Shown piece after piece: positions 27,525-45,139 of a DNA stretch of 45,139 nt. The notes below the pieces were generated by a model. That model did not search any database. It saw nothing but the letters and a program-made list of their open reading frames with translations, and was not told where the DNA came from. The DNA comes from Pseudomonadota bacterium (GTDB lineage: Bacteria; Pseudomonadota; Alphaproteobacteria; Acetobacterales; Acetobacteraceae). The stretch covers positions 1 through 45,139 of the forward strand of contig JAJXWD010000021.1 of the NCBI GenBank assembly GCA_021781835.1, given 5' to 3'. Both the position numbers and the translations under genes were made by a program. Position 1 is the first letter of the stretch, and every line of letters begins with the position of its first letter.

Positions 27525-29192
27525 ATGAATACAGAACCTTACGATGTGGTGGTGGTTGGCTCGGGCGCGGCGGGCAGCTTCGCGGCGAAGGAGCTGACGG
27601 AGCGGGGGCTGCGGGTGCTGGTGCTCGAGGCCGGCCGGAACGTGACCGGCGAGGATTTCAAGCTTGACCCCAAGGCGCCCAAGGAAAAGGGCATTCAGCT
27701 TTGGGCGCGCATCCGCGCGGCGCTCGAAGGCCAGCCGATCCAGTCGAAAGTGGCGTTTTACGGCCGCCAGCTGAAGCATTTTTTTGTCCAGGACAGCGAG
27801 CACCCCTACACCACGCCGCGCGGCAAGCCGTTTTTGTGGATTCGCGGCAAGCAGCTTGGCGGGCGGCTGCACACCTATGGCCGGATGCTGCTGCGGTGGA
27901 CGGATTATGATTTCAAGGCCGCCAGCCGCGACGGTTATGGCGAGGACTGGCCGATCGGCTATGCCGACATCGCCCCTTATTACGACCGGGTCGAGGAATT
28001 TTTGGGGGTGTATGGCGAGGCGCGCGAGATTCCCAACCTCCCCGCCGGGCATTATGCTGGTGACGCCCGGCTGACCCGGGCGGAGGCGGCCTTCAAGGCC
28101 AAGATCGAGCAAAAATGGCCCGAGCGTGCCGTGACCACTTGGCGTTACGTGCCGCCCAATGCCCGGCGCATTCCCCATGCCCTGCTCGCCGCCCAGGCGA
28201 CCGGGCGCCTGACCGTGCGGACCGACGCGGTTGTGCGCCGCGTGCTCACCGACCCGCGGAGCGGCAAGGCCACGGGGGTGGAATATGCCGACCGGCTGAG
28301 CAAGAAGACCGAGGTGGCGACGGGCAAGGTGGTGATGCTGTGCGCCTCCCCGATCGAGACGGTGCGGCTGATGCTCAACTCCACCAGCCCCCGCCACCCG
28401 CGGGGCATAGGCAACAGCTCGGGCACGCTCGGGCATTATTTCATGGACCAGGTGCCGAGCCTGATCATCGGTTCGGTGCCGGGGGTAGAGGGCGCGGAAG
28501 TGGCCGACCCGCTGCCCGCCGACCCGTTTTACGGCAATAGCGGCGGGGTCTATATTCCGCGCTTCGAAAATCTCGGCCAGGCGGCGGGGCGGGGCTTTCG
28601 CCGCGGCTTCGGGTTTCAGGGCACCATCGGCCGGCTGTTTGTGCGCGCCGGGCGGCCGGCGCAGTTCGGCATCATGGGGTTTGGCGAAATGCTGCCTCAT
28701 TTTGAGAACCAGATCAGCCTCGAGCCGCGCCGGAAGGATCGCTGGGGCGTACCGCTGCCCCGCATTGCCTGTGCCATTACCCCCAACGAAGCCGAGCTGC
28801 TGCGTGGCCAGGTGGCCGCCATCAAGGATATGGTCGAGGCCGCGGGGCTGGAGATCGAGTTTTACGGCTCGCAGCTTGGGCTGGTGGAGCAGGGGCGTGG
28901 CGCGTTTCCCGATGCCGACTGGTTCAGCCGGCTGTTGTTCCGCCTCAATTTCACCAAGGGCATGGCGATGGGCGCGGCGATCCATGAAAGCGGCGGCGCG
29001 CGCATGGGCAAGGATCCGGCCATTTCGGTGCTCAACGCCCATAATCAATGCTGGGATGTGCCCAATCTCTTCGTCACCGATGCCAGCAGCTTCGCCACGG
29101 GCGGGTGCTGCGGCACGACCCTGACGGTCATGGCCCTGACCGTGCGGGCTTGTGAATATGTGGCCGGGCAGCTGGCGGCGGGGCGGCTTTGA
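27525..29192 (+). CDS. GMC-family flavoprotein, probable glycoside C3-oxidase/dehydrogenase
   Basis: A 555-residue FAD enzyme of the glucose-methanol-choline family, with no signal peptide (cytosolic). The Rossmann FAD motif is VVVVGSGAAGSFAAKEL at 8-24, followed by VLVLEAG. The C-terminal catalytic region has IHESGGARMG (likely catalytic His) and DASSFATGGCCGTTLTVMAL. Where most relatives read NPTLT this protein has GTTLT at 530-534, preceded by two cysteines. FAD-dependent C-glycoside 3-oxidases (CarA-type) and pyranose-oxidase-like enzymes belong to this superfamily, and the next genes encode C-glycoside deglycosidase subunits. I therefore infer oxidation of the sugar 3-hydroxyl of a glycoside. 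Other alcohols are possible substrates. Confidence 0.85.
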   Translation: MNTEPYDVVVVGSGAAGSFAAKELTERGLRVLVLEAGRNVTGEDFKLDPKAPKEKGIQLWARIRAALEGQPIQSKVAFYGRQLKHFFVQDSEHPYTTPRGKPFLWIRGKQLGGRLHTYGRMLLRWTDYDFKAASRDGYGEDWPIGYADIAPYYDRVEEFLGVYGEAREIPNLPAGHYAGDARLTRAEAAFKAKIEQKWPERAVTTWRYVPPNARRIPHALLAAQATGRLTVRTDAVVRRVLTDPRSGKATGVEYADRLSKKTEVATGKVVMLCASPIETVRLMLNSTSPRHPRGIGNSSGTLGHYFMDQVPSLIIGSVPGVEGAEVADPLPADPFYGNSGGVYIPRFENLGQAAGRGFRRGFGFQGTIGRLFVRAGRPAQFGIMGFGEMLPHFENQISLEPRRKDRWGVPLPRIACAITPNEAELLRGQVAAIKDMVEAAGLEIEFYGSQLGLVEQGRGAFPDADWFSRLLFRLNFTKGMAMGAAIHESGGARMGKDPAISVLNAHNQCWDVPNLFVTDASSFATGGCCGTTLTVMALTVRACEYVAGQLAAGRL

Positions 29193-29263
29193 GGGCCTCC
29201 CGCCCGGGGTGAAACGGCGTTTGAGTTCTGGTGGTAAAAAAACAAAATTCAGGAGACGTACAA

Positions 29264-30535
29264 ATGGAAATATCTGCCGTGATGCAAGCAGGCGAGGGCG
29301 CGGCGGCGCGCCGGCCAAGGGCCATTCATATCAGGCTGAGCGCGCTGATTTTGCTGGAGTTCGTGGTGTTTGGCGCGTGGTTCGCCACGCTCGGGCTGGT
29401 GCTGGCGACCCACGGGCTGGCGCCCTTCATCGGCAATGCCTATTTCATCAGCGCGGTCGGCGCCATCGTCTCGCCCATGCTGATCGGCGCCGTGGCGGAC
29501 CGCTTCATGTCCGCCCAGAAAGTCTTCGCGCTTTTGCACTTTATCGGCGCGGGCATCTTGTTTTCCATTCCGCATTTCATCGCGCTCGGCAATGGCGATG
29601 TCGTGGTCGCGATGATCTTCGCCTATATGATGTTTTTCATGCCGACCCTCGGGCTGGTCATCTCGATCCCGCTTTATCACATGCAGGACCGGACGCATTT
29701 TTTCCCCTATGTCCGGGTGTTTTCGCCGTTCGGCTGGTTCGTGGGGGCGATCGTCGTCGGCGCGCTGGGGTTTTCGGCCTCCACCAACACCTTTCTGTTC
29801 GCCGGCGCCATCAGCCTGGTGCTCGCCGCCTACGCCCTGACAATCCCCAACACGCCGCCCGCCCTGGCCAATGCCCGGTTTGATTTTGGCGACATCATCG
29901 GGGCGAAGGCGTTTGTCTTGTTCAGGCAGCGCAATTTCCTGGTGCTGATGGTCTGCACCTTTCTCACCGCCATATCGCTGGGCGTCTATAACGCCTTCGC
30001 CTCGCCCTATCTGGGGGCGCTGGGCATCAAGAATGTCTCGGGCGTGCTGGCGATCGGGCAATTTTCCGAGGTTGTTTTCGTGCTGACGATCCCCTTCGTG
30101 CTGGCGCGCATTGGCATGAAATGGGCCATTTTGGCCGGCATGGCGATGTGGGGGATCCGGTTTGGCTTGTTCATGCTGGCGCCCGGCCATGTGGCGCTGG
30201 CGGTGGTCGCGGTCGGGCTGCATGGCATCTGCAATGATTTCTTCCTGATCGTCGCCGCCATGTATATCGACCGCGTGACGCCGCCGGCCTTGAAGGCCCA
30301 GGCGCAGGGGTTTCTGGTGCTCATGCTGTCTGGGGTTGGCGGGGCCGTGGGCGCCAAGGTGGGCGGCTATATTTTCGTCAACCAGATCATCCCCAACATG
30401 GCGAAAGGCCCGGCCGTCTGGGCGCCTTTGTGGATGGTGCCCGTGGTGGTTGCGATCTTTGTCTCGATCATGTGGGTGATCTTTTTCAAATATGATCGCC
30501 GTCAGGAAGCCGCGGACATGCGCAGGGCGGCGTGA
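29264..30535 (+). CDS. MFS transporter, nucleoside:H+ symporter (NupG-like) family
   Basis: A 423-residue inner-membrane protein with about twelve transmembrane segments. The start (IHIRLSALILLEFVVFGAWFATLG, outlined) and the loop YHMQDRTHFFPYVRVFSPFGWFVG are characteristic of the NHS/Nuc_H_symport family, where W, G and R in 'R..G..GW' are conserved. Members in sugar-catabolic clusters often carry glycosides rather than nucleosides. ATG 29264 has AGGAG eight bases upstream; translating from 29231 would add residues with no start signal. Placed between the GMC oxidase and the CGD genes, it probably imports the glycoside substrate. Confidence 0.88.
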   Translation: MEISAVMQAGEGAAARRPRAIHIRLSALILLEFVVFGAWFATLGLVLATHGLAPFIGNAYFISAVGAIVSPMLIGAVADRFMSAQKVFALLHFIGAGILFSIPHFIALGNGDVVVAMIFAYMMFFMPTLGLVISIPLYHMQDRTHFFPYVRVFSPFGWFVGAIVVGALGFSASTNTFLFAGAISLVLAAYALTIPNTPPALANARFDFGDIIGAKAFVLFRQRNFLVLMVCTFLTAISLGVYNAFASPYLGALGIKNVSGVLAIGQFSEVVFVLTIPFVLARIGMKWAILAGMAMWGIRFGLFMLAPGHVALAVVAVGLHGICNDFFLIVAAMYIDRVTPPALKAQAQGFLVLMLSGVGGAVGAKVGGYIFVNQIIPNMAKGPAVWAPLWMVPVVVAIFVSIMWVIFFKYDRRQEAADMRRAA

Positions 30536-30541
30536 GGCTGG

Positions 30542-30566
30542 CGGCCCCGCCCACAAGGCGGGGCCG
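30542..30566 (+). terminator. Strong hairpin between MFS and CGD-beta genes
   Basis: CGGCCCCGCC (30542-30551) pairs perfectly with GGCGGGGCCG (30557-30566). Only a weak T/A tail follows (TTCGAAAATT). It may partly terminate or set unequal mRNA levels between the GMC/MFS genes and the CGD genes. A TATAAT sequence at 30583-30588 could give a fresh promoter. Confidence 0.55.
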
Positions 30567-30603
30567 TTCGAAAATTGCGGCGTATAATTCAGGAATGAAG
30601 ACG

Positions 30604-31071: not shown

Positions 31072-31076
31072 GACCC

Positions 31077-32195
31077 ATGAAACTCGGCGTATCCCTTTAC
31101 AGCTATCAGCAGGCGCAGTTCTTTAAAGAATTGTCTCTTGAAGACCAGATCCGGGAGGTTAGTGAAAACCTGCCGGGCGCGGATGGCATCGAGATCATCG
31201 ATGAAATGTCGCTCCATTACCCAGATCCAGGCCTCGCCTTCATCGAACGCTGGTTTGGCTGGATGGCGCGCTACAAAACCGTGCCGGTGACGATGGATGT
31301 TGGCATGGATGTGCTGCAATTCCGCGACCATGTCATGAGCCACGCGGAATGCGCCGAACGGCTGAAGCGCGATATCAGGCTGGCCAAGAGCCTGGGGTTT
31401 CAAAATGTCCGGGTCTTGTCCACATGCCCGTTCGAGGTGATGCTGGCGGCCTTGCCCGAGGCCGAGCGGCTGGGGCTGAAGCTTGGCAAGGAAGTGCACC
31501 AGCCCATGGCGCTGGAGGGGCGCCAGGTTTCCGAAATCATCGAGTACGCACAAAAAACCGGGCATGATCTGCTTGGCATCGTGCCCGATTTCGGCATTTT
31601 CGGCACGCGACCCTCGGAGGTTTTGCTGGCATGGTATGTCCGGCGCGGGGCGCGCGAGGCGGCGGGCGATGCCGCGGTCGAGCTGGCGCATTTGCTGCGA
31701 ACCGGCCGCGCGCCGCTGGATTTCGAGGCGGTCTCTCGCCAGACGGCGGGAAATTTGCGTGTCGCGTTCAAGAGCTTTGTTGGTACGGGGCTCTGTGAGC
31801 CAGAGCTCAAGCCGGCATTTGAGGCACTGAAGCGGTTCGCCGACCAGCGCGTGCCAATGGCGAGCGCGCTCGATTATGTGGTGGTGTCCGAGGCGATATT
31901 GCTGTCCAACACCTCGCCCGACACGTTGCGCCAGCTTTGCCCCCATGTCGTGAGTGTACATGCCAAATTCAATTATATGTCCGAATGTCCAGGGTGGCCT
32001 GGGGAGTTTCAGGATATCGCCATCGATTATGAGGCGGGCATCAAGGCGCTCCGCGATGGCGGCTATGCGGGCTATCTCAACTCGGAATATGAAGGCCAGA
32101 GATATTTCCAGGACCGGACGCGCGCCGAGATGCAAAGCGAGATCGAGCAGGTGCGCCGGCACCAGGGCATGCTGCGGAGGCTGATTGCGCCATGA
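31077..32195 (+). CDS. C-glycoside deglycosidase alpha subunit (TIM-barrel, AP_endonuc_2 fold)
   Basis: A 372-residue sugar-phosphate-isomerase-like protein starting MKLGVSLYSYQQAQFF, a start I associate with CGD alpha subunits. Candidate metal and catalytic residues are E139/H141 in KEVHQPM, D171 in VPDFGIF, H295 in VHAKFNYM and E337 in NSEYEG. These sit in the usual strand-end positions of the xylose-isomerase-like TIM barrel. Known CGDs take a 3-keto C-glycoside, deprotonate C2 and expel the aglycone by beta-elimination; some also act on O-glycosides. The beta subunit precedes it by five bases, and the lactonase start overlaps its stop (ATGA), so it is central in a coupled operon. Confidence 0.82.
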   Translation: MKLGVSLYSYQQAQFFKELSLEDQIREVSENLPGADGIEIIDEMSLHYPDPGLAFIERWFGWMARYKTVPVTMDVGMDVLQFRDHVMSHAECAERLKRDIRLAKSLGFQNVRVLSTCPFEVMLAALPEAERLGLKLGKEVHQPMALEGRQVSEIIEYAQKTGHDLLGIVPDFGIFGTRPSEVLLAWYVRRGAREAAGDAAVELAHLLRTGRAPLDFEAVSRQTAGNLRVAFKSFVGTGLCEPELKPAFEALKRFADQRVPMASALDYVVVSEAILLSNTSPDTLRQLCPHVVSVHAKFNYMSECPGWPGEFQDIAIDYEAGIKALRDGGYAGYLNSEYEGQRYFQDRTRAEMQSEIEQVRRHQGMLRRLIAP

Positions 32196-33391
32196 ACAAG
32201 AGCTTGATTGCCTATGTGGGGTCTTACGGCGCGGCGCCGGGGGCTTTGGGCGGCGGCATTTACGCGCTGCGCGTGGCGCACCAGGGGCGGGATCTCGTGC
32301 AAATCTTTCATGAGCCCGAGCCGAAAGATGCCGGCTATCTGGTATATGCCGCGCAAAGCCGGATGCTTTATGCGGTTGATGAGCGCAAGACCGATGGGCG
32401 CGGCCCCGTGAATCCGCCGGCAAGCGTGCAGGCGTTTCGGGTCATGGCGGATGGCGCCTTGGTGTGGCGCAACACCGTGCGGGCATTTGGCCCGAGGCCT
32501 TGCCATCTCAGTCACGATGGGACGCAAAATATGGTGTTCTCCGCCAATCACGGAGATTTTCAGCATGTTGAGCGGGTCGTCAAAAAGCCTGATGGCGGCT
32601 TTGATGTTGAGTATGTGTACGATGATTCGACCCTGACCATGTACCGGGTTGAGGCGGATGGCGCTCTGGGCGAGGTCGCGGATATTCATGTTTTTGAAGG
32701 GCATGGCAAAGACCCCAACGGGTCGCCGCAAAATGGCGGCCATGCGCAGGCGAGCCCCCATGTGCATTGCGCGGTCATGGCGCCCGATGGGCGGTTTGTC
32801 ATCGCGTGCGACAAGGGAACCGACAAAATCCATGTCTTTCGCCTGGAAGAGAGGCTCGAGATCGCTCATACCCACCAGATGCCCGCGGAGACGGCGCCAA
32901 GACATGCGGCATTTTGCCCCCAAACCGGGCGTTTGTTCGTGAGCTGCGAATTATCCTCGGAGATCGCATCGTTTGACTTCGATCCGGACACGGGAACCTT
33001 GACCCCGCTGGACCGGCAATCGAGCGTCGATCGGGCTTATGAGGGCGTGAATGAGCCCGCCGAGATCAGGATCCATCCCAATGGCCGCTTTGCCTATGTG
33101 AATAACCGCGGCGAGGATTCGCTGGCGTGGTTCGAGATCGGCGGGGATGGCAAGCTCGCGCGCCTTGGGCATGTCTTGCTCGCCAAATCGGTCCATCCAG
33201 GTCTGGCGGCGCGGAGTTTCGCCTTCAGCCCGTCGGGAGATTTCATGCTCCTGGCCGATCGTCCGGCGCATAGGGTGCGCTCTTACGCGGTGGATGGACA
33301 GAGCGGCGCGGTCAGCCAGATGGCGGAGTTTTCGGTGCCAGACCCGGCATTCATCTGTTTCGCGGAACTGAGCCGCGAGGGAGATTATTGA
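32192..33391 (+). CDS. Lactonase-family seven-bladed beta-propeller protein
   Basis: A 399-residue protein of the 6-phosphogluconolactonase-like (YbhE/carboxy-muconate cyclase) family. Repeating blade patterns are visible: GGIYALRV, ASVQAFRVMADGAL, LTMYRVEADGAL, KIHVFRLE, IASFDFDPDTGTLTPL, DSLAWFEIGGDGKL and HRVRSYAVDGQSGAV. The conserved surface PHVHCAVMAPDGRFV carries the putative active-site His and Arg/Asp. A cytosolic DevB-type Pgl is encoded at 42086, so this one probably acts on another lactone or cyclic intermediate of the glycoside route. It overlaps both neighbours (ATGA with CGD alpha, TGATG with the Gfo/Idh gene). Confidence 0.88.
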   Translation: MNKSLIAYVGSYGAAPGALGGGIYALRVAHQGRDLVQIFHEPEPKDAGYLVYAAQSRMLYAVDERKTDGRGPVNPPASVQAFRVMADGALVWRNTVRAFGPRPCHLSHDGTQNMVFSANHGDFQHVERVVKKPDGGFDVEYVYDDSTLTMYRVEADGALGEVADIHVFEGHGKDPNGSPQNGGHAQASPHVHCAVMAPDGRFVIACDKGTDKIHVFRLEERLEIAHTHQMPAETAPRHAAFCPQTGRLFVSCELSSEIASFDFDPDTGTLTPLDRQSSVDRAYEGVNEPAEIRIHPNGRFAYVNNRGEDSLAWFEIGGDGKLARLGHVLLAKSVHPGLAARSFAFSPSGDFMLLADRPAHRVRSYAVDGQSGAVSQMAEFSVPDPAFICFAELSREGDY

Positions 33392-34539
33392 TGCGTGAGC
33401 AAATGAATATTTCCCGGCCCAGCGAGCGGTTGCAAGTTGTCATCATCGGCAGCGGCATGATCGGGGATGTGCATCGCCGCGCGGCCATTTTGGCTGGGGG
33501 AGAGGTGGCGGGCGTCATGGCCTCGACGCCCGAGCGCTCCGATCTGGCGGCGGCGCGGTGGCGGACGCGGGCCGTTGCCAACCTGGCAGATCTGGCGAGG
33601 TTTGCCCCGGACATCGTGCATGTGTGCAGCCCCAACGCGCTGCATCTTGAGCATGTCAAGGCGGCTCTTGCCTGCGGAGCACATGTGATTTGTGAAAAGC
33701 CCCTGGCGATCGACGCCGCCTCCGCGCGCGATGTATGCGAAGCGGCGGCGGCGCGCGGCAAAATCGCCACGGTGCCGTTCGTCTACAGATTCCACCCGCT
33801 GATCCGCGAAATCAGAGCGCGCGTCCAGCAGGGGGAGTTTGGCAAATGGCACTTGCTGCACGGCAGTTATTTGCAGGACTGGCTGCTCTCCCCCCACGCG
33901 ACGAGCTGGCGGGTGAATTCAAAAATCGGCGGTGCGTCGCGGGCTTTCGCTGATATCGGCTCGCATTGGTGCGATCTGGTGGAGTTTGTCAGCGGCGAGA
34001 AAATCGCCGCGGTGATGGCGAGCATGACCACCACGATCCCGGAAAGGCCAGCCAATTCGGCGGCGACCTTTGGCGCCGAGCGGCCAACGGGCGAGACGAT
34101 GAAAGTGGATACCGAGGACGCCGCCGTGGTGACCTTCAAGACCGCGTCTGGTGTTCTGGGCGTGGTAACCATTTCGCAAATCTCGGCGGGGCGGAAAAAC
34201 CGGCTATGGTTCGAGCTTGACGGCGCCGAGAAATCGGTGGTGTTCGACCAGGAAAATCCAGAGACGATCTGGATCGGCTCGGAAGGTCCGGCCATGGTGG
34301 TGAACAGGGATCCCGCGCGCGGCGCCGAAGATCAGCGCCGCCTGTCGGTTTTGCCGCCCGGGCATCCGCAGGGCTATGCCCAATGTTTCGATAATTTTGT
34401 GAACGACACCTATGCGGCCGTTAAGGGCGAGCTTCATGACGGCCTGCCCTCGTTCGCGGATGGTTTGCGCTCGGCTCATATTGTCGAGGCGGTCATTCAA
34501 TCGGCGCGCGCGCGGCAGTGGGTGGATGTGAAAAGCTGA
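33391..34539 (+). CDS. Gfo/Idh/MocA-family NAD(P)-dependent sugar dehydrogenase
   Basis: A 382-residue oxidoreductase. The Rossmann motif IIGSGMIGDVH is at 18-28, EKPLA at 102-106 carries the catalytic Lys103, and D188-x3-H192 in DIGSHWCD supplies the second conserved pair. ATG 33391 overlaps the lactonase stop (TGATG). In 3-keto-sugar routes such enzymes interconvert glucose and 3-keto-glucose. Here the most economical role is reduction of released 3-keto-glucose to glucose, since the GMC enzyme can perform the first oxidation. It could instead be a second C3-oxidising enzyme. Confidence 0.9.
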   Translation: MREQMNISRPSERLQVVIIGSGMIGDVHRRAAILAGGEVAGVMASTPERSDLAAARWRTRAVANLADLARFAPDIVHVCSPNALHLEHVKAALACGAHVICEKPLAIDAASARDVCEAAAARGKIATVPFVYRFHPLIREIRARVQQGEFGKWHLLHGSYLQDWLLSPHATSWRVNSKIGGASRAFADIGSHWCDLVEFVSGEKIAAVMASMTTTIPERPANSAATFGAERPTGETMKVDTEDAAVVTFKTASGVLGVVTISQISAGRKNRLWFELDGAEKSVVFDQENPETIWIGSEGPAMVVNRDPARGAEDQRRLSVLPPGHPQGYAQCFDNFVNDTYAAVKGELHDGLPSFADGLRSAHIVEAVIQSARARQWVDVKS

Positions 34540-34575: not shown

Positions 34576-35604
34576 ATGAGTTTGACAGCGCCGCCCGTGA
34601 CCTTGTTCACGGGCCAATGGGTGGACTTGCCCCTTGAGGAGGTCGCGGCGCTTGCCGCGGGGTGGGGGTATGATGGGCTGGAACTGGCCTGTTCGGGCGA
34701 GCATCTCGATGTCTGGCGCGCGGCCGAGGATGCAAATTATCTCGCCAGTCGCAAGGACATTCTCGATCGCCACGGTCTGAAACTGTTCGCGATTTCCAAC
34801 CATCTGGCCGGCCAGGCGGTTTGCGACGACCCGATCGATTTTCGCCACCAGGCGATTTTGCGCCCGCGGACCTGGGGAGATGGCGAGGCCGAGGCGGTGC
34901 GGCGCCGGGCGGCGGAGGAAATGGCGCTGACCGCCAGGGTGGCGAGGCAATTGGGGGTGGATATCGTGGTCGGTTTCACCGGCTCGAAAATCTGGCCTTA
35001 CGTCGCGATGTTTCCGCCTGTGCCTGGCCATGTCATCGATGAAGGCTATGAGGATTTCGCCCGCAGATGGCGGCCGATTTTGAATGTTTTCAGAAATGAA
35101 GGGGTAAGATTCGCCCACGAGGTTCACCCCGGAGAGATCGCCTATGATTACTGGAGCAGCGTGCGCGCGCTCGAAGCCCTGGACCACGACCCGGCCTTTG
35201 GCTTCAACTGGGACCCGTCTCATATGATGTGGCAAAACATCGATCCGGTTTCGTTCATCCATGATTTCCGTCAGCGCATTTATCATGTGGATTGCAAGGA
35301 CACGCGTCTGAAGCCGAAAAACGGCCGCTATGGGGTTTTGGGGTCGCATTTGCCGTGGGGAGATGCGCGCCGGGGCTGGGATTTCGTGTCGGTCGGGCAT
35401 GGCGATGTGCCATGGGAAGATGCGTTTCGGGCGCTGCGCTCCGCCGGATATGCCGGGCCGATTTCGATTGAGTGGGAAGATGCCGGCATGGACAGGCACC
35501 ATGGCGCGGCCGATGCGCTGCGCTACGTGAAATCATTATTGTGGAAGCTGCCGGCGCGCGGTTTCGATGCGGCGTTCGCGGAAAACGCCGCCACCGATCT
35601 GTGA
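34576..35604 (+). CDS. Sugar-phosphate isomerase/epimerase-like TIM barrel (possible 3-keto-glucal hydratase)
   Basis: A 342-residue AP_endonuc_2-fold protein. Likely metal ligands are E182/H184 in HEVHPGEIAYD, D213 in NWDPSHMMW, H237 in YHVDCKDT and E299/E301 in IEWED. It is only distantly similar by eye to the CGD alpha subunit. C-glycoside deglycosidases release a 3-keto-2-hydroxyglucal-type sugar that must be hydrated to 3-keto-glucose, and TIM-barrel hydratases of this fold do this in related 3-keto-glycoside pathways. I propose that role here. An isomerase of the IolE or hydroxypyruvate type is the alternative. GAGG precedes ATG 34576 at a normal distance. Confidence 0.82.
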   Translation: MSLTAPPVTLFTGQWVDLPLEEVAALAAGWGYDGLELACSGEHLDVWRAAEDANYLASRKDILDRHGLKLFAISNHLAGQAVCDDPIDFRHQAILRPRTWGDGEAEAVRRRAAEEMALTARVARQLGVDIVVGFTGSKIWPYVAMFPPVPGHVIDEGYEDFARRWRPILNVFRNEGVRFAHEVHPGEIAYDYWSSVRALEALDHDPAFGFNWDPSHMMWQNIDPVSFIHDFRQRIYHVDCKDTRLKPKNGRYGVLGSHLPWGDARRGWDFVSVGHGDVPWEDAFRALRSAGYAGPISIEWEDAGMDRHHGAADALRYVKSLLWKLPARGFDAAFAENAATDL

Positions 35605-35729
35605 CCAGGCCATGGAGCGCGGGAAGGATGTTAAATCATGTAGATATGAAACGATTTTCGCAATGATGCGGGTGGAGCACGGCGTGAGAATCCGCCCGTC
35701 GTAAAGAGGTGGAATTATGGGAGACAGAA

Positions 35730-37169
35730 ATGTTTAAGAAAATAAATGGTTCGGCCGCCATGATGCGGTCAATGTTGATGGCATCGGTGGCGATGGGGGC
35801 ATGGCATGGGGCGGCGTTCGCGGCCACTGCGTCGCAGGCGCCCCTGAAGCTGACGCTGACCTCGGATCAGAGCGCGAGCGTGCCCAAGGCCGCCCCCGCG
35901 GCGCCGCCGGTCGATGCGCTGTCGCCGACGATGTTTGGCTGGCGCCCGTGGCTGAACGCCCACGGGATCGACATGATGCTCGACGAAACCGATGAATTCG
36001 CCACGACGATTTCGAGCTATCGCAACCCCACGACCAACACCGGCCAATATTCCTGGTGGACCAACATAGACTGGGACAAGCTCGCGGGCATTCCGGGGTT
36101 TTCAACCCACACCATCATCGTTGGGCGTTATGGCAATGATTCCAGCCACAAGATCGGCGACGCGGTGAGTTCGAGCCAGGAGATTTACGGCTCGGGCGGC
36201 AATGTCTTCGCGCATCTCGTCGAGGCCTATGGCGAGGAATCCCTGTTTGACAACCGTGTCGATCTCGTGCTCGGCATCGAGCCGATGCTGTGGGATTTCG
36301 CCGGCGCCTATCTTCAGTGCAGCAACTTCATGAACGACGCGCTGTGCGGCAACCCGACCATCGGCTATGAAAACGGCCCCTATTCGGTGTTCCCCGATTG
36401 GAGCTACGCGGCGCGCATCCAGATCAGCCCGACCCCGACCACCTACATCAAGACCGGGCTGTTCTACACGCAGCAAAACATCTACCAGATCAATCACGGT
36501 TTCCGCAGCGGCTTCATGTTCGATGCCGCCCAGGTCAAGCGCCCGACCATTCCCGTGGAGCTGGGCTGGACGCCGGCTTTTGGCGCCGAGGCGCTGCCCG
36601 GCCATTACAAGGCGGGCGTCATTTTCGATGAAAACGTCCACCCGGATGATTATTACGACATCAACGGCAATGCCTGGGCGCAAACGGGCCTGCCCCCGCG
36701 TGAGGTGAAAAGCGCGCCGTCTGAATATATCATGGTCGATCAGATGTTCGTGCGCAACGGCCCCGGCCCGTTCAGCGGCTTGATCGGTTTTGCCAGCTAT
36801 TGGCACGATGCCGCCAACTGGTTCACGGTCGGGCTGGTTGACCATGGCTTCTGGTCGGCCCGGCCGGATGACGGCGCGGCGATCGGGTTTGTGTATGCCA
36901 TCATGCCGCCCGGCGTGCGCAAGACCGAGCAATTGCAGCAAAAGCTCGGCCTGCCGATCACGGGCGATGCCTATGGCCTGCCCTTCAACGGCAATGCCGT
37001 GACGGGGGTGCAAAGCACCTGGCCGATGCTGGAGCTGCAATACCAGATCCATGTCACGCGCGGCGTCACCGTCTCGCCGGATTTCCAGTATTATTTCCGG
37101 CCCAACGCCCAGTCCAATCTGCCGCCGGCGGCCTTTGTCGGCTTCAGAACCCACATCACCCTGTTTTAA
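35730..37169 (+). CDS. oprB: OprB-type carbohydrate-selective porin
   Basis: A 479-residue outer-membrane porin. The signal peptide is MFKKINGSAAMMRSMLMASVAMGAWHGAAFA in outline (1-31), with likely cleavage after AFA. The mature part shows many alternating aromatic/polar strands and OprB family stretches such as YSWWTNIDWDKLAG, GNVFAHLVEAYGEESLFDNRVDL and a C-terminal Phe (HITLF), the usual outer-membrane insertion signal. ATG 35730 follows GGGAGA at good spacing; a GTG 21 bases earlier would spoil the signal peptide. As last gene before a terminator, it probably admits the glycoside or sugar to the periplasm. Confidence 0.9.
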   Translation: MFKKINGSAAMMRSMLMASVAMGAWHGAAFAATASQAPLKLTLTSDQSASVPKAAPAAPPVDALSPTMFGWRPWLNAHGIDMMLDETDEFATTISSYRNPTTNTGQYSWWTNIDWDKLAGIPGFSTHTIIVGRYGNDSSHKIGDAVSSSQEIYGSGGNVFAHLVEAYGEESLFDNRVDLVLGIEPMLWDFAGAYLQCSNFMNDALCGNPTIGYENGPYSVFPDWSYAARIQISPTPTTYIKTGLFYTQQNIYQINHGFRSGFMFDAAQVKRPTIPVELGWTPAFGAEALPGHYKAGVIFDENVHPDDYYDINGNAWAQTGLPPREVKSAPSEYIMVDQMFVRNGPGPFSGLIGFASYWHDAANWFTVGLVDHGFWSARPDDGAAIGFVYAIMPPGVRKTEQLQQKLGLPITGDAYGLPFNGNAVTGVQSTWPMLELQYQIHVTRGVTVSPDFQYYFRPNAQSNLPPAAFVGFRTHITLF

Positions 37170-37253: not shown

Positions 37254-38486
37254 ATGCCGTCAAAAACGCCAAAATCCGAACAAAAACCCGAAAAACGCCA
37301 AGCCGGGCGCGGTGCGCGCGCGGCCAACACGCATTTGATCGTCGAGGCGCTGCGCACGCTGGGGCCGCTGTCTCAGGCGATGATCGCCCGCCAGACGGGG
37401 CTATCCCCGGCCTCGGTCAACAACATCATCCATGCGCTCCGGCATGATCATGTGGTGTCGGTCGAGGCGATCAATGGCCGCGAGGCCCTGGTGCGGCTGG
37501 CCACGACCAAGGGCGCCGTGGCGTCTGTCACGGTCGGGCCGGAGGTGATGTCTGGGGCGCTGGTGTCGTTTGACCGCGAACGGCGGTTTGACGCGCTGTT
37601 GCGCCCGCCCGCCGGGCAGGCCGGCACATCGCCTGATATGGTGGTGGAGCTGCTGGAGGATTTGGCGCGCCAGGCGGGCATCGGCCTCGCCGATCTCACC
37701 GGGGTTGCCATCGCCATGCAGGCGCCCATCGAGCGGGGCAGCGGGGCGGTCACCTCCTGGGCGGCGAGCCGGCTGCCTTTATGGCGAGACATGGCGCTGC
37801 AACGCCATTTCGCGGCGGCGCTGGGCGTGCCGGTGATTGTCGATAACGACGCCAATCTGGCGGCGCTGGCGGAGTGGAGCTGGGGCGCCGGGCGCGGCTC
37901 GGAGGATTTTTTATATGTGATCTGTTCGGAGCAGATCGGCGGCGGGCTGATCATTGATGGCAAGATCTATCGTGGCGGCACCGGCATCGCCGGTGAGATC
38001 GGCCATATGGTGCTCACGGAGACGGGGCCGCTCTGTTTTTGCGGCAGCCGCGGCTGCTTGTCGGCCTATGCCTCCGAGCGGGCGATCTTGTCCAAGCTTC
38101 AGGTCTCGGAGAGCGCCAAGACCAGCTTGAAGGATGTCATCGCGAGCGCCCGCAATGGCGATGCCGCCTGCCAGCTGGTGTTGCACGAGGCCGGGCGGTC
38201 TCTGGGGCAGGCGCTGGCCAACGCCGCGCGGCTCATCGCGCCCAGCGTGATCTCGATCGGCGGCGAGCTGGGGGCGGCGGGGGCGTTTGTGTATGATGGC
38301 CTGCGCTCGGCGTTTGACGCGCCGAACATGAAGGCGATCACCGCCTCGATCCGGGTTTGCGTGGGTGAGCTGCCGGGCGACGCCACCTTGCTGGGCGGCG
38401 TCGCGGCGGTTTTGGCCTCGCTCGACAAGGGGCTGAGCGCCTTGCCGGGCTGGATGGAGCCGGCGCGCGCGCTCAGCGATAGATGA
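37254..38486 (+). CDS. ROK-family transcriptional repressor (NagC/XylR type)
   Basis: A 410-residue regulator. A basic tail is followed by a MarR-like winged helix (HLIVEALRTLGPLSQAMIARQTGLSPASVNNII, outlined, ~24-58), then a ROK sugar-binding domain. The domain shows VDNDANLAALAE, GEIGHMVL and the zinc motif CFCGSRGCL. It is read away from the glycoside operon and ends overlapping the opposite-strand kinase gene by 14 bases. The sugar-binding domain fits sensing glucose or a keto-sugar produced by the upstream operon. There is no typical ribosome binding site; an operator-like repeat occupies that place. Confidence 0.9.
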   Translation: MPSKTPKSEQKPEKRQAGRGARAANTHLIVEALRTLGPLSQAMIARQTGLSPASVNNIIHALRHDHVVSVEAINGREALVRLATTKGAVASVTVGPEVMSGALVSFDRERRFDALLRPPAGQAGTSPDMVVELLEDLARQAGIGLADLTGVAIAMQAPIERGSGAVTSWAASRLPLWRDMALQRHFAAALGVPVIVDNDANLAALAEWSWGAGRGSEDFLYVICSEQIGGGLIIDGKIYRGGTGIAGEIGHMVLTETGPLCFCGSRGCLSAYASERAILSKLQVSESAKTSLKDVIASARNGDAACQLVLHEAGRSLGQALANAARLIAPSVISIGGELGAAGAFVYDGLRSAFDAPNMKAITASIRVCVGELPGDATLLGGVAAVLASLDKGLSALPGWMEPARALSDR

Positions 38487-39189
38487 TGTCCATCTCCGGG
38501 CGCCACAGCTTGATGCCGCCTTGCAGGCCGGCGGCGTTGAGGGCGAGCGAGACGGTGCCGGGCAGTTCCTCGGCCGTGAAATGGCGGGCATTGCCGCCGC
38601 CCAGATAAAGATGGTCGAAATTGACCAGCGCGGCGCAACGGCCGATGGTGGTCAGCACATTTTGTTTCCAGGCCGCCATGCCGGCCTGGCGATAGGTGGC
38701 ATCGCCGACGAAATCGTCATAGCTCGGCGCCTCGCCCGCCGGGTGGCGGCCAAGCTCGATTTGCGGGGCGGGCACGCCGTCGCGGAACAGGGCAAAGCCC
38801 ATGCCGGTGCCAAGCGTCAGGGCCACCTCGATGCCGGCGCCCCGAATGACGCCAAGCCCGTGCATCGTGGCGTCGTTCGCCAGGCGGGCGGGGCGGCCGA
38901 AGCGGGCGGCGGCGAGGGCGGCGAGGTCGGTGCCATGCCAGACATCGGAGCCGAGATTGGGGGCGGTGAGGATGATGCCGCCCCGGATGGCGCCGGGGAA
39001 GCCGATCGAGAGCCGGTCAAACCCGCCGAGCGGGGCAACGAGCGTGGCGATGGCCTCCAGCACGGTTGCCGGCGGCGCGCCGGCGGGCGTGGGGCAGCGC
39101 ACGGGTTCGTGCGTCATCTCGCCTTGGGGGGTGAGCAGGGCGGCCTTGAGATAAGTCCCCCCGATATCGAGAGCGAGCGTGGTGGGCAT
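38473..39189 (-). CDS. ROK-family sugar kinase, polyphosphate-glucokinase-like
   Basis: A 238-residue cytosolic kinase that probably makes glucose-6-phosphate. The phosphate-binding start TLALDIGGTYLKAAL, catalytic Asp in ANDATMHGLG, and LTLGTGMGFALF loop are clear. The zinc-binding CxCGxxGC motif of ROK repressors is absent, and IELGRHPAGEAPSYDD replaces it as in PpgK-type enzymes, which may use polyphosphate or ATP. ATG 39189 has GGAGA six bases upstream; longer readings begin in low-complexity Pro/Ser sequence. It is divergent from the second ROK repressor, with a palindromic operator between them, and would link glucose release to the zwf operon. Confidence 0.87.
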   Translation of the reverse strand: MPTTLALDIGGTYLKAALLTPQGEMTHEPVRCPTPAGAPPATVLEAIATLVAPLGGFDRLSIGFPGAIRGGIILTAPNLGSDVWHGTDLAALAAARFGRPARLANDATMHGLGVIRGAGIEVALTLGTGMGFALFRDGVPAPQIELGRHPAGEAPSYDDFVGDATYRQAGMAAWKQNVLTTIGRCAALVNFDHLYLGGGNARHFTAEELPGTVSLALNAAGLQGGIKLWRPEMDIIYR

Positions 39190-39278
39190 GATGGTCTCCG
39201 AAGGGGCGGCTTGGTTTGGTTGTGATGTCCGCGGCTTTGCCGGACGGGTTTTGGACGGTGACGTGGGCGTTGGCACAA

Positions 39279-39301: not shown

Positions 39302-39368
39302 CCGTCCGGCGGCGCGGGCTGTCAATCGTCAATTGCGTGCCCAGCGGTGATCGGCTACGGATCACGGC

Positions 39369-40538
39369 GTGATTTCAAAGAAAAAGCTTAATTCCGCGGC
39401 CATCCGCCGGGCCAATACGGCGCGGGTTTTTCATGCCATACGCCAGCAGCCCGGGCTGTCGCCACGGGGGCTGGGGCAGCTTACCGGCATAGATGGCGCG
39501 ACGCTTTCCATCATTCTCGGCCAGCTTGAGCAAGACGGGCTGCTGATCCGCGACACCGCGGCCGCGACCGGCCATTCCGGGCGGCCGAAATCCCTGCTGT
39601 CGATCGACGCCAAGGCCCGGCTGATGGCGGGGGTGGCGCTGGAGGTGGATGAGATCCAGATTTTGATCGCCGGTTTAACGGGGGCGCGGCTGGCGGTGCT
39701 GTCCGTGCCCGGCTGCCCGACGCCCGAGGGCGCGGCCGGGGCGATCAAAGCGGGGATTTTGGCCTTGCTCAAGCAGCTTGGGCTGGCGCGCAAAAGCCTG
39801 GCGTGCATTGGGGTTGGCGTGCCGGGGCTGGTGGGGGCGGATGGCCGGCTCGTGCTCGCCCCCGCTTTGGCCTGGCGCGACGTTGATTTCGCCGGCCTGT
39901 TGTCGGCCGCGCTGGGCGTGCCGGCCTATCTCGAAAACGACACAAACGTCGCCGCCGCCGCCGAGCATCTGTTTGGCGGCAGCCAGAACGTGGCCAATTT
40001 TGTCTATATTTCCGGTAATTCGGGGTTGGGCGGCGGGTTATATCTCGGGGGCGGCATCTATCGCGGCCCGCGCGGGCTGGCCGGCGAGCTTGGGCACATG
40101 AAGCTGGTGCCCAATGGCCGCCTGTGCGCGTGCGGGGGGCATGGCTGTCTGCAAACCTATGTTTCCGGCCACGCGATTTTGCAGCGCGTGGCCGAATCGG
40201 GCAGCCCGGCGGCGGATATGTCGGTGGTCCGGGCGCGGGCACTCGCGGGCGATGACAAGCTCCGCGCCATTCTCGCCGAAGCCGGCGAGGCGCTGGGGCT
40301 CGGGCTGGCCAGCCTCGCCAATCTTCTGGCGCCCGAGCGCATTGTGCTGGGCGGCAGCCTGGCCGGCCTCGCGGCGTTTTTGCTGCCCTCCTGCCGGCAG
40401 GTTTTCAACGCCAATGCCATGCCCGGAATCGCGGGGGATGTCGCGATCACGGTCTCGGAACTCGATGCCTTCGCCATCCCCATGGGGGGCGTGGCCCTGG
40501 CCTTGCAACGGCTTTTTGACGATCCAGGCTTTTTTTAA
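39369..40538 (+). CDS. Second ROK-family transcriptional repressor
   Basis: A 389-residue regulator. The winged helix is ARVFHAIRQQPGLSPRGLGQLTGIDGATLSIIL in outline (~18-50). It is followed by the ROK domain with ENDTNVAAAAE, the SGNSGLGGGLYLGG loop, GELGHMKL and zinc motif CACGGHGCL. The start is GTG 39369, with GGATC upstream. It directly precedes zwf-pgl-edd-eda (84-base gap) and is divergent from the kinase gene, so it probably regulates glucose phosphorylation and the Entner-Doudoroff genes. It is only moderately similar by eye to the ROK repressor at 37254, so they are unlikely to be a recent duplication. Confidence 0.9.
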   Translation: MISKKKLNSAAIRRANTARVFHAIRQQPGLSPRGLGQLTGIDGATLSIILGQLEQDGLLIRDTAAATGHSGRPKSLLSIDAKARLMAGVALEVDEIQILIAGLTGARLAVLSVPGCPTPEGAAGAIKAGILALLKQLGLARKSLACIGVGVPGLVGADGRLVLAPALAWRDVDFAGLLSAALGVPAYLENDTNVAAAAEHLFGGSQNVANFVYISGNSGLGGGLYLGGGIYRGPRGLAGELGHMKLVPNGRLCACGGHGCLQTYVSGHAILQRVAESGSPAADMSVVRARALAGDDKLRAILAEAGEALGLGLASLANLLAPERIVLGGSLAGLAAFLLPSCRQVFNANAMPGIAGDVAITVSELDAFAIPMGGVALALQRLFDDPGFF

Positions 40539-40622
40539 AGGCCACCGCAAAAACCGCTTTACCGGGACGGCGATTTCCCCTATTTTTTCGACCATTAAAA
40601 TAATCAGGCAGGATCGTTGTTC

Positions 40623-42089
40623 ATGACCAGTCGGGTGATTCCGGTATCGCCGTTCGTGTTGGTTGTTTTTGGCGCCACGGGCGATCTGGCCCGTCGGAAG
40701 CTTTTGCCGGCGATGTTCCACCGCGACGCGGCGGGGCAGTTGCCCGAGGCGGCGACGATCATCGGGGCGGCCCGCGCGCATCTCGATGATGCGGGCTTCA
40801 TCGCCCAGGCGCGCGCCGCGCTCATTGAGCATGTGCCGGCGGGTGAGCGCGACGAGGCGGTGCTCGCCCGTTTCCTGGCCCGGCTTCGCTATGTGGCGGT
40901 GGATGCCACGGGCGAGGCGGGCTGGGGCGAGCTGGCGGCGCTGGTCGCGCAGGCGGCGGAGCGTGTGAGCGTGTTTTACCTCGCCACCGGCCCGGCCTTG
41001 TTCGGCCCCATTTGCGAGCGTCTGGCGCGGTTTGGGCTCAATGGCCCGCTGGCGCGCGTGGTGGTGGAGAAGCCGGTCGGCAAGGATGGCGCCTCGGCGC
41101 GCGCGGTGAACGAGGCCATCGGCGCGGCCTTTCCGGAGGAGCGCGTCTATCGCATCGATCATTATCTCGGCAAGGAGACGGTGCAGAACCTGATGGCGCT
41201 GCGCTTCGCCAACGGTCTGTTCGAGCCGCTCTGGAACGCCGCCCATATCGACCATGTGCAGATCACGGTGGCCGAATCCATAGGCTGCGAGGGCAGGGCT
41301 GGCTATTACGACACCGCCGGCGCGCTGCGCGACATGGTGCAAAACCACATGCTCCAGCTGCTCTGCCTGGTGGCCATGGAGCCGCCCGCCCGGCTCGATG
41401 CCGACGAGGTGCGCGATGAGAAGCTGAAAATCCTGCGCGCGCTCAAGCCCGTGGGCGCCCAGGAATGGGTGCGCGGCCAGTACCGCGCCGGGGCCTCGGC
41501 GGGCGGGCCGGTCAAGGGCTATCTCGAGGAGCTGGGCTCCGAGGAGAGCGCCACCGAAACCTTCGTGGCGCTCAAGGCGGGTGTGGAGACTTGGCGCTGG
41601 GCGGGGGTGCCGTTTTATTTGCGCACCGGCAAGCGCCTGGCCGAGCGCGTGTCCGAGATCGTGGTGTCCTTCCGCCCCATTCCGCACTCGGCCTTCGCGC
41701 CTTCGGCTGGGCCGATCGCGGCCAACCGCCTGGTCATTCGCCTGCAACCCGATGAAGGCGTCAAGCTGTTCATCATGATCAAGGATCCCGGCCCCGGCGG
41801 CATGCGCCTGCGCGAGGTGCCGCTGGATATGAGCTTCTCGGCCGCCTTCAACGCCCGCAACCCCGATGCCTATGAGCGCCTGGTGCTCGATGTGGTGCGC
41901 GGCAACCAAACCCTGTTCATGCGCCGCGACGAGGTGGAAGCGGCCTGGGCCTGGATCGACCCGATTTTGGATGCCTGGAGTGCCCAGGCCGAACCTCCCA
42001 AACCCTACACCGCCGGCACCTGGGGCCCGAGCGCGGCGATCGCCCTGATCGAGCGCGACGGCCGCACGTGGGTTGATGGCGCGCCATGA
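40623..42089 (+). CDS. zwf: Glucose-6-phosphate 1-dehydrogenase
   Basis: A 488-residue enzyme oxidising glucose-6-phosphate to 6-phosphogluconolactone. The coenzyme motif FGATGDLARRKL is at 16-27, and the active-site signature RIDHYLGKE is at 177-185. The VVEKPVGKDGASA loop is also intact. ATG 40623 is chosen over the in-frame TTG six bases upstream because family N-termini are short here. Its stop overlaps the pgl start (ATGA). The operon zwf-pgl-edd-eda contains every step from glucose-6-phosphate to pyruvate plus glyceraldehyde-3-phosphate. Confidence 0.97.
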   Translation: MTSRVIPVSPFVLVVFGATGDLARRKLLPAMFHRDAAGQLPEAATIIGAARAHLDDAGFIAQARAALIEHVPAGERDEAVLARFLARLRYVAVDATGEAGWGELAALVAQAAERVSVFYLATGPALFGPICERLARFGLNGPLARVVVEKPVGKDGASARAVNEAIGAAFPEERVYRIDHYLGKETVQNLMALRFANGLFEPLWNAAHIDHVQITVAESIGCEGRAGYYDTAGALRDMVQNHMLQLLCLVAMEPPARLDADEVRDEKLKILRALKPVGAQEWVRGQYRAGASAGGPVKGYLEELGSEESATETFVALKAGVETWRWAGVPFYLRTGKRLAERVSEIVVSFRPIPHSAFAPSAGPIAANRLVIRLQPDEGVKLFIMIKDPGPGGMRLREVPLDMSFSAAFNARNPDAYERLVLDVVRGNQTLFMRRDEVEAAWAWIDPILDAWSAQAEPPKPYTAGTWGPSAAIALIERDGRTWVDGAP

Positions 42090-42712
42090 GGCGCTTCGAA
42101 ACCCCCCAGGATCTGGCCGAGTGTTTGGCGACCGAAGTGGCGGGTCATCTGCGCGCCGCCATAGCCGCCACCGGGCGGGCCGGGCTCGCGGTCTCGGGCG
42201 GCACCACGCCGGTCAGGTTCTTGCAAGCCCTGGCCTGCCAAACTCTAGACTGGCCGCGCGTCACCCTCACCCTGGCCGATGAGCGCTGCGTGCCCGAAGC
42301 CTCGCCCCGCTCCAACACCGCGCTGGTCAAAACCCATTTGCTGCAAGGCGCCGCCGCCCAGGCCCGCTTCGTGCCGGTCGGCGATCCCACGGCCCTGCCG
42401 CTCACCGTCGCGGTGCTCGGCATGGGCGAAGATGGCCACACCGCCTCGTTTTTTCCCGGCGGCGACCATCTGGCCCAGGCGCTCGACCCCGCCTGCCCGC
42501 ATGCCGCCCTGCCCATGGCCGCGCCCGGCGTGCCCGAGCCGCGCGTGACCCTGACCTTGCCAAGTTTCGCCGCCGCCCGATATTTGTTTGTGCACATCGA
42601 GGGCGAGGCCAAGCGCCGCGTGCTCGCCCAGGCCCAAACCCCCGGCCCGGCGCCAGACATGCCCGTGCGCGCCATTCTGGCCCTCGACCCCGAGATTTTC
42701 TGGAGCCCCTGA
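42086..42712 (+). CDS. pgl: 6-phosphogluconolactonase (DevB/Pgl type)
   Basis: A 208-residue NagB-fold lactonase hydrolysing 6-phosphogluconolactone. [26 protein letters not shown] and [16 protein letters not shown] are the three conserved regions of the DevB family. It is slightly short for the family (usually 220-250). It overlaps zwf by four bases and is followed by edd after two bases. It is a different fold from the beta-propeller lactonase at 32192, so the two are not simple duplicates. Confidence 0.95.
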
Positions 42713-42714
42713 TC

Positions 42715-44523
<1,809 letters not shown>

Positions 44524-44525
44524 CA

Positions 44526-45139
44526 ATGTTTCAAGACGGGCTTGAAGAAATCCTCACCCTCGCACCCGTGGTGCCGGTGGTGATCGTCGAAGACGTGCAT
44601 GACGCCGTGCCGCTCGCCCGCGCGCTGGTGGCGGGCGGGCTTTGTGCCATCGAGGTGACGTTGCGCACCAGCGCCGGGCTCGAAGCCATCCGCCGCATCG
44701 CCGCCGAGGTCGCGGGCGCGGTGGCGGGCGTTGGCACCGTGCTCACCCCCGCCCAGGCCGAGGCCGCCGCCAAGGCGGGCGCCAAATTCGCCGTCTCCCC
44801 AGGCGCCACGCCCAAACTTCTGGACGCGCTGGAACAGAGCGGCATGGCGCCGCTGCCCGGCATCGCCACCGCCTCCGAGGCCATGCGCCTGATCGAGCGC
44901 GGCTACACCCACGCCAAATTCTTCCCCGCCGAACAATCCGGCGGCGCCCCCTTCCTCAAGGCCATCGCCTCGCCGCTGCCCCAGCTCAAATTCTGCCCCA
45001 CCGGCGGCATCAACCCCCAAAACGCCCAATCCTACCTAACCCTCCCCAACGTCCTCTGCGTCGGCGGTTCCTGGATGCTCAAACCAGAACTCATCGCCAC
45101 CAAAAACTGGCCCGCCATCGAAAACCTGGCCCGCCAGGC
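44526..45139 (+). CDS. eda: KDPG aldolase (3' end cut by window edge)
   Basis: About 204 codons from ATG 44526 to the window edge with no stop, so the gene is nearly complete (family length ~205-215). It cleaves 2-keto-3-deoxy-6-phosphogluconate into pyruvate and glyceraldehyde-3-phosphate. Active-site residues are E43 and R47 in IEVTLRT, and Schiff-base Lys131 in [14 protein letters not shown] is the phosphate loop. It is the last gene of the Entner-Doudoroff operon seen here. Confidence 0.95.

Follow-up and report, generated by a model that had tools for sequence, protein, structure and literature searches.

The breakdown of plant C-glycosides has been studied, in the reports drawn on here, with flavonoids, mangiferin and the dye carminic acid, and several described systems can serve for comparison. 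The CarABC and PsG3Ox-CGD systems of soil actinobacteria are reported to combine a flavoprotein of the GMC family with a C-glycoside deglycosidase (CGD) made of alpha and beta subunits, whose Mn-ligand and base residues are conserved (Mori 2021; Taborda 2023), and CGD homologues in Proteobacteria have already been reported (Mori 2021). A four-step logic of oxidation, elimination, hydration and reduction to glucose is described for the Agrobacterium O-glycoside operon GlycDH-OGE-HYD-Gfo (Bitter 2023) and for the levoglucosan operon of Bacillus smithii (Kuritani 2020, cited in Bitter 2023). The gut clusters DgpABC and DfgAB also contain CGD alpha and beta homologues, and DgpA is described as an oxidase of the Gfo/Idh family. 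We know of no lactonase or gallate genes in these gut clusters. The syringate and gallate pathway of Sphingobium SYK-6 (DesA, LigM, DesB) serves lignin monomers and is not known to serve glycosides.

Here we describe a locus on a 45,139-nucleotide stretch from a bacterium assigned to the Acetobacteraceae (contig JAJXWD010000021.1 of assembly GCA_021781835.1), called the window throughout; its features are listed in Table 1. The assembly yielded no 16S gene by which this family could be confirmed. At its centre is a cassette of eight genes, encoding a ROK repressor, GMC, an MFS importer, the CGD beta and alpha subunits (CGDb and CGDa), a lactonase, a Gfo/Idh oxidoreductase and a second TIM barrel (TIM2). 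The cassette resembles the actinobacterial systems in its GMC and CGD proteins, whereas its GMC lies nearer to FAD glucose and fructose dehydrogenases, and a lactonase and O-demethylase genes are added. It shares the four steps to glucose with the Agrobacterium and B. smithii operons, including a relative of the protein deposited as a hydratase under 8ro4; unlike them, it has a CGD alpha/beta pair as the eliminase and carries aromatic genes and a lactonase. In contrast to the gut clusters, the oxidation would fall to a GMC enzyme. With the SYK-6 pathway the locus has in common that several cassettes are flanked by homologues of O-demethylase and gallate dioxygenase genes. The original prediction read the 17.6-kb block from the GMC gene to eda as a single C-glycoside cluster wired into the Entner-Doudoroff (ED) pathway. 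All the genes it named are open frames in their expected places (window open reading frames, Pfam) and follow one another as listed, but the block is not uniform, as the ROK kinase lies on the minus strand and zwf-eda has a different history. We judge it about an even chance that the locus is a horizontally acquired island, placed directly upstream of the host's own glucose/ED operon, and that it serves a plant aromatic of the gallate type with O-methyl and glucosyl groups, for which bergenin is the likeliest candidate.

Both CGD subunits fall within the families to which they had been assigned. CGDb is well over the Pfam CGDB cut-off (106.5 against 27.6 bits). The Pfam match of CGDa is weak (AP_endonuc_2, 27.2 bits, under the cut-off of 31.1), and its nearest solved chains in a phmmer search are CGD alpha subunits (8qvc, 7.9e-47; PuCGD 7bvr, 2.1e-22). 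The TIM-barrel alpha and CGDB beta subunits are encoded side by side, as expected of a CGD. In AgCGD2 the metal ligands are reported as E147, D179, H269, K271 and E305, with H149 as base and E307 as helper (Mori 2021). The window's counterparts, matched to AgCGD2 by motif, are E139, D171, H295, K297 and E337, with H141 and E339 as base and helper. A residue-by-residue alignment was made with PuCGD and 8qvc, in which H141 pairs with H143 of PuCGD and E339 with its E301. None of the seven positions varies in any of the 38 full-length rows, a count that omits the truncated L034 and L039 (locus numbers are those of our searches), and the CGDb alignment omits 6 of 39 loci with stops. By these family tests the two proteins form a C-glycoside deglycosidase pair with a predicted activity on 3-keto C-glycosides.

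The remaining proteins of the sugar half can be placed with differing precision. The GMC protein is 56-66% identical across 11 cassettes, and its best profile scores are with FAD glucose and fructose dehydrogenases (128-147 bits), ahead of 7qf8 (72 bits), which we take to be PsG3Ox, and the pyranose oxidase 8qve (57 bits); these scores do not place it in the POx/CGOx branch to which CarA and PsG3Ox belong. The gap of 38 bases between the GMC and MFS genes is too short for a small-subunit gene. His487 of GMC is kept in 12 of 12 aligned cassettes, and an invariant Gly530 stands where the glucose dehydrogenase alignment has Asn. The structure model of GMC (mean pLDDT 67.5) was left out of the fold search. 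TIM2 matches 8ro4, deposited as a 2-hydroxy-3-keto-glucal hydratase, over residues 20-338 (9.5e-37, 130 bits), and scores far higher with 2zds, a protein of unknown function (491 bits). This homology over the whole barrel makes the suggested hydratase a possible assignment. The lactonase model (pLDDT 89) retrieved 6-phosphogluconolactonase-like propellers, PpgL and the muconate lactonizing enzyme 1jof in Foldseek, so the modelled fold confirms the propeller family, without fixing a substrate. It did not reach the NCBIfam cut-offs for beta-propeller 6-phosphogluconolactonases (75 against 370 bits for PRK11028 and 104 against 500 for NF050136). The short ROK kinase scores 78 bits with the polyphosphate glucokinase model, below its cut-off of 250. 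Elsewhere in the same genome, contig C8 (L067, 26000-43076) has two further pairs of Gfo/Idh and TIM-barrel genes, 25-33% identical to the window's, together with homologues of MTHFR-like and formyltetrahydrofolate deformylase genes; these may be additional glycoside loci that include genes for one-carbon demethylation.

The cassette recurs in distant bacteria. A search of genome contigs for CGDa returned 39 loci. CGDb, CGDa and the lactonase occur together in 12 of these (L001-L012, with a lactonase at least 47% identical adjoining CGD) and on two plasmids, L099 and L100. All eight genes are found at 48% identity or more in L001, L004, L005, L006, L007, L009, L010, L012 and L099, and ROK homologues (48-54%) in L001, L003-L007, L009, L010, L012, L034, L099 and L100. 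Some loci are less complete: L011 has no GMC match, L008 has no MFS or ROK match in its 14 kb, and the contig of L002 is short. Among the host genera are Sphingobium, Novosphingobium, Stakelama, Caballeronia, Amycolatopsis, Sinomonas and Vibrio, with part of the cassette in Pantoea; two of the strains that carry it are Sphingobium lactosutens DS20 and N. resinovorum SA1. A search of plasmids gave three CGDa records, two with the lactonase. The first, L099, is the conjugative 961-kb plasmid pSA2 of N. resinovorum, with the order ligK, 4-oxalomesaconate tautomerase, GH3, TonB, MFS, GntR, ROK, TonB, GMC, MFS, CGDb, CGDa, lactonase, Gfo/Idh, TIM, LysR, VanB, VanA, gallate dioxygenase, MFS. The second, L100, is p174224 of Pantoea piersonii, with VanA, VanB, MFS, DUF554, Gfo/Idh, TIM, glk, GMC, ROK, MFS, CGDb, CGDa, lactonase and a carbohydrate porin; its Gfo/Idh and TIM proteins share just 37% and 32% identity with those of the window. 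A Niallia plasmid record has no lactonase, VanAB or gallate dioxygenase by annotation and BLAST. As a tentative proposal, to which we give slightly less than an even chance, this would be a complete mobile bergenin island that covers the opening of the lactone, the breaking of the C-C bond, the release of glucose and the demethylation of 4-O-methylgallate. It would be carried by chromosomes as well as plasmids, in Actinomycetota and in Alpha-, Beta- and Gammaproteobacteria, would include a new subfamily of lactonases and a new O-demethylase clade, and would here be set beside a native glucose operon.

What the cassettes have for company points to a substrate. Fifteen cassettes bear the lactonase (the window, L001-L012, L099 and L100), of which 14 could be assessed, L002 being dropped as a 4.6-kb contig; L034 was left out of the count as its contig ends inside CGDa and the lactonase is not visible. 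An O-demethylase gene lies within the fetched flanks of 12 of the 14, the exceptions being L003 and L011. It is of the VanAB type in the window, L001, L006/L081, L099 and L100, and of a DesA/LigM-like type in L004, L005, L007, L008, L009, L010 and L012. Gallate dioxygenase genes are found in five (L001, L003, L004, L005 and L099), and one or other kind of gene in 13. For instance, in Sphingobium (L001) TIM2 is followed by LysR, VanB, VanA, a LigBA fusion and MFS, with GntR upstream. In L004 and L005 the order is LysR, LigBA, an MTHFR-like gene and GCV_T, and L004 also has a formyltetrahydrofolate deformylase. GCV_T homologues in the flanks of L007, L008, L009, L010 and L012 are 46-50% identical to that of L005 and lie up to 9 kb from CGDa. 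In Caballeronia (L006) VanB is at the locus edge and VanA just beyond it (L081). The LigBA fusions of L001, L003 and L005 exceed the NCBIfam equivalog cut-off for gallate dioxygenase (731, 688 and 685 bits against 412); that of L001 is closest to the gallate dioxygenase 3wku, and that of L004 is 80% identical to that of L005. The pSA2 and p174224 plasmids were fetched after the methylgallate/bergenin hypothesis had been noted, and both fit it. The former is closely related to L001, their gallate dioxygenases being 85% identical, and so is not a fully independent case; the Pantoea plasmid is independent.

Alternatively, the cassette could be a general C-glycoside pathway for flavone or xanthone C-glucosides, like CarABC or DgpABC, with VanAB and gallate genes nearby by coincidence. 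The solved CGDs among the matches do act on flavonoid or anthraquinone C-glycosides. Coincidence fits poorly with the 12 and five of 14 cassettes that have an O-demethylase and a gallate dioxygenase, with the use of two unrelated O-demethylase types, and with the single clade formed by the five VanA proteins. Furthermore, the 26 other CGDa loci and L101, which lack a close lactonase, gave no match to LigBA, GCV_T and L001 VanA queries, although some of these contigs are short and the contrast is confounded, because most of these loci look like anaerobes by name. Two of the 26, L016 and L020, have a lactonase of 28-30% identity. Taken together, we regard a general C-glycoside pathway as improbable.

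The window's own aromatic genes lie at 21.0-25.4 kb, outside the block first described, and had been overlooked although they are common to other cassettes and point to the substrate. This group of GntR, VanB, VanA and an aromatic transporter is probably the other half of the island. GntR homologues adjoin the cassette in Sphingobium (L001, 51%) and on pSA2 (54%), and VanB proteins 43-50% identical stand beside the cassettes of L001, L006/L081, L099 and L100. The VanA_C and Rieske domains, with a VanB-like reductase partner, mark the pair as a candidate O-demethylase of the VanAB type. Cassette VanA proteins are 56-66% identical to the window's, other VanA homologues, including eight of S. lactosutens, being 38% or less. 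The five cassette VanA proteins form one clade (support 100/99) among the 22 rows of a tree that holds no characterised VanA and to which L082 contributed no row passing the filter.

These genes can be arranged into a pathway for bergenin, which is reported to be a 4-O-methylgallic acid C-glycoside with a closing lactone (PMC11743450). Such a structure would call for a lactonase, a CGD, an O-demethylase and a gallate dioxygenase, which is the set observed around the cassettes. It would also explain the presence of a lactonase, for which the known oxidation-elimination-hydration-reduction logic has no need. OprB and the Nuc_H-type MFS would import the glucoside, and the beta-propeller lactonase would open its internal lactone. 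The GMC flavoprotein would then oxidise glucose C3, and the CGD would eliminate the aromatic ring from C1 to leave 2-hydroxy-3-keto-glucal, which TIM2 would hydrate to 3-keto-glucose and Gfo/Idh would reduce to glucose. The ROK kinase and zwf-pgl-edd-eda could carry this glucose to pyruvate. The island's VanAB would demethylate the aglycone (4-O-methylgallate, if bergenin), and an extradiol dioxygenase whose gene lies elsewhere would cleave it. Every reaction here is predicted, as is the order of lactone opening and C3 oxidation, and the substrate is a hypothesis drawn from gene company. The scheme of oxidation, elimination, hydration and reduction proposed at the outset is thus supported for the cassette, though it had already been described for other operons (Bitter 2023). 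The gut enzyme D3dgpA is reported to convert bergenin to oxo-bergenin and derivatives (PMC11239390), so oxidation of bergenin is feasible, and a puerarin-cleaving Dorea strain is reported not to metabolise it (PMC10772555). No bergenin catabolic cluster was found among the papers listed in searches of the open-licence PMC literature.

Several points weigh against bergenin as the substrate or against a single island. No gallate dioxygenase was found near the actinobacterial cassettes (L007-L010 and L012) or near that of Caballeronia (L006), whose gallate dioxygenase is on another contig; one of five L007 neighbours scanned with Pfam is a glyoxalase-domain protein. Both kinds of gene are missing from L011 (Vibrio), the flanks of L003 lack an O-demethylase, and L003, L011 and L100 have distant TIM2 homologues only (30-32%). 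With the nine solved proteins that match it best, the lactonase shares just 19-25% identity, which is too low for its substrate to be predicted from the sequence. No fused gallate dioxygenase was found in the window's genome, where the best match is a LigB (45%) of a protocatechuate 4,5-dioxygenase-type LigAB on contig C55; enzymes of this type can cleave gallate. A FUSC gene stands between the van genes and the cassette; no FUSC homologue was seen beside the other cassettes, and at E 1e-20 it was found in the window's own genome only, of 61 genomes. Base composition was also considered as proof of transfer, but once the rest of the genome had been sampled for comparison it counted only as weak evidence: G+C is 59-63% from CGDb to TIM2, 66-68% in GMC and the first ROK gene, 68-71% in zwf-eda and 61-66% in other stretches. 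Finally, the known activities of VanA, LigM and DesA concern meta-methoxyl groups, whereas bergenin is para-methoxylated, so para-demethylation would be a new specificity.

In a second alternative, the substrates are the O-glucosides formed by methoxylated acids of the lignin type, such as vanillic, syringic or 3-O-methylgallic acid; they would be cleaved by the same C3-oxidation and elimination chemistry, with the lactonase acting on a sugar lactone. The VanA, LigM and DesA families demethylate acids of this kind, and the score of the L005 GCV_T comes near the cut-off of the LigM model (545 against 580) and that of the DesA model (559 against 800). CGD-type enzymes are also reported to cleave 3-keto O-glucosides (Bitter 2023), so that the C- or O-bond is not fixed by the enzyme family. 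However, the cassette has retained the beta subunit of the CGD and every residue linked to C-C cleavage, and the lactonase adjoins CGDa in all 12 untruncated loci where CGDa is at least 58% identical (L001-L012). The cassette VanA proteins are a clade apart from the other homologues in the comparison, and the three GCV_T proteins tested (L005, L009 and L010) are below both the DesA and LigM cut-offs. We therefore consider lignin-type O-glucosides unlikely, though the strongest of the alternatives.

The history of the ED genes can be read from relatives. Close relatives of edd occur in 24 of 36 same-genus genomes, at 25 places (E 1e-150), of which 19 were fetched from 18 genomes. In 17 of these 19, zwf, edd and eda are together without the cassette, 16 with pgl between; the other two have only edd-eda. 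In G009, G011 and G022 a sugar ABC transporter, ROK kinase, ROK regulator and zwf follow in the same orientation as in the window, with OprB in between in G009. All three are without CGDa. G011 and G022 have pyruvate kinase after zwf, and edd-eda follows zwf in G009 only, so the window's order of ROK kinase, ROK, zwf and edd-eda has one full parallel. G024 has ROK-zwf-pgl, and in G017 the transporter, kinase, OprB and ROK are present but zwf is missing. In the clusters L043 (G009), L061 and L062, pyruvate kinase joins zwf or edd-eda genes, and pgl was not found in L043. CGDa was found in 0 of 36 same-genus genomes, 0 of 24 others and 0 of 386 other genomes of a class-wide sample, the one hit in 387 being the window's own (E 1e-60). 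As CGDa is missing from relatives that have the ED operon, the cassette looks like a newcomer, and it appears to be seated where three relatives keep their sugar transporter. The genome has another copy of the sugar ABC and ROK regulator genes on contig C52 (L064), so no displacement at the landing site need be assumed.

On this comparative evidence zwf-pgl-edd-eda is the host's own operon, older than the cassette, and the ED genes were ruled out as part of the cassette, since relatives without CGDa have the same genes. This leaves little room for a third possibility, that C-glycoside and ED genes evolved as one purpose-built, regulated unit. In its favour are their physical adjacency and the parallel of p174224, where glk within the cassette links glucose phosphorylation to it. 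Against it, zwf-(pgl)-edd-eda stands alone in relatives, CGDa is missing there, and no zwf, edd or eda match was found within the fetched flanks of the other named cassettes; we consider it very unlikely. The glk inside the p174224 cassette ties glycoside cleavage to glucose phosphorylation in a way similar in effect to the window's. Routing to pyruvate as a built-in property of the locus therefore does not hold, nor does the novelty of a CGD in an alphaproteobacterium as such (Mori 2021). The ED wiring is mostly an older operon and a landing place; of more interest is the proposed mobile pathway, built of two halves, for the glucoside of a methylated gallate.

Table 1 Features of the island and its surroundings in the window
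Feature	Position	Strand	Evidence
GntR/FCD regulator	21012..21683	-	Pfam GntR+FCD; homologues beside cassettes L001, L099
VanB-like reductase of two-component O-demethylase	21905..22885	+	Pfam NAD_binding_1, Fer2
VanA-like Rieske oxygenase, start codon probably further in	22834..23985	+	Pfam VanA_C 5e-36, Rieske
MFS transporter, aromatic acid/H+ symport type	24061..25416	+	TIGR00895 308 bits, below cut-off 418
FUSC-type (aromatic acid efflux-like) membrane protein, island membership uncertain	25421..27352	-	Pfam FUSC_2
GMC flavoprotein, proposed glucoside 3-dehydrogenase/oxidase	27525..29192	+	Pfam GMC_oxred_C/N
MFS importer, nucleoside:H+ symporter family, proposed glycoside uptake	29231..30535	+	Pfam Nuc_H_symport 1.6e-80
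CGD beta subunit (CGDb)	ORF 30532-31071, homology from ~30604	+	Pfam CGDB 8.9e-31; DfgB 7bvs_B 3e-9
CGD alpha subunit (CGDa), proposed Mn-dependent 3-keto-glycoside beta-eliminase	31077..32195	+	PDB CGD chains
7-bladed beta-propeller lactonase, proposed substrate-lactone opener	32192..33391	+	Pfam Lactonase 6.7e-69
Gfo/Idh/MocA oxidoreductase, proposed 3-keto-glucose reductase	33388..34539	+	Pfam; PDB 4h3v 7.2e-47
Second TIM barrel (TIM2, AP_endonuc_2), proposed 2-hydroxy-3-keto-glucal hydratase	34576..35604	+	PDB 2zds, 8ro4
OprB carbohydrate porin	35709..37169	+	Pfam OprB 5.2e-67
ROK repressor of cassette	37254..38486	+	Pfam ROK; 48-54% homologues in other cassettes
Short ROK kinase, proposed glucokinase, older block	38473..39276	-	Pfam ROK 3.5e-14
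ROK regulator of older glucose/ED block	39369..40538	+	Pfam ROK; adjoins zwf in L043, L061, L062, L065
zwf	40617-42089	+	Pfam
pgl	42086-42712	+	Pfam
edd	42715-44523	+	Pfam
eda, no stop codon before window end	44520-45137	+	Pfam

At four junctions within the cassette, adjoining genes overlap or are almost in contact (-4, +5, -4 and -4 bases). The FUSC gene has 72% G+C and is convergent with the aromatic transporter. Upstream, positions 1-20784 are rich in mobile and defence genes, including a serine recombinase, a MobA-type relaxase, a type I restriction-modification system with a Fic gene between, an FtsH-like ATPase, a GmrSD-like gene and a SIR2-domain gene adjoining a HerA-type helicase. A 58-base direct repeat, present twice (76% alike, 63 bases start to start), lies at 20827-20947 between the defence genes and GntR. 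No repeats resembling insertion ends were seen at 20.7-41 kb among 20 of 24 direct families or 15 inverted pairs, and no tRNA genes were found in the window.

If the proposal is true, it would show how a plant C-glucoside lactone can be broken down aerobically, with the sugar and aromatic halves in one mobile block, and it names a purchasable substrate with which this can be tested directly. It would also offer uncharacterised enzymes, namely a lactonase that acts on lactones of aryl C-glucosides, a glucoside 3-dehydrogenase of the GMC family and O-demethylases that may be specific for 4-O-methylgallate, in a module that is seen on plasmids and, in the window's species, settled beside central sugar metabolism.

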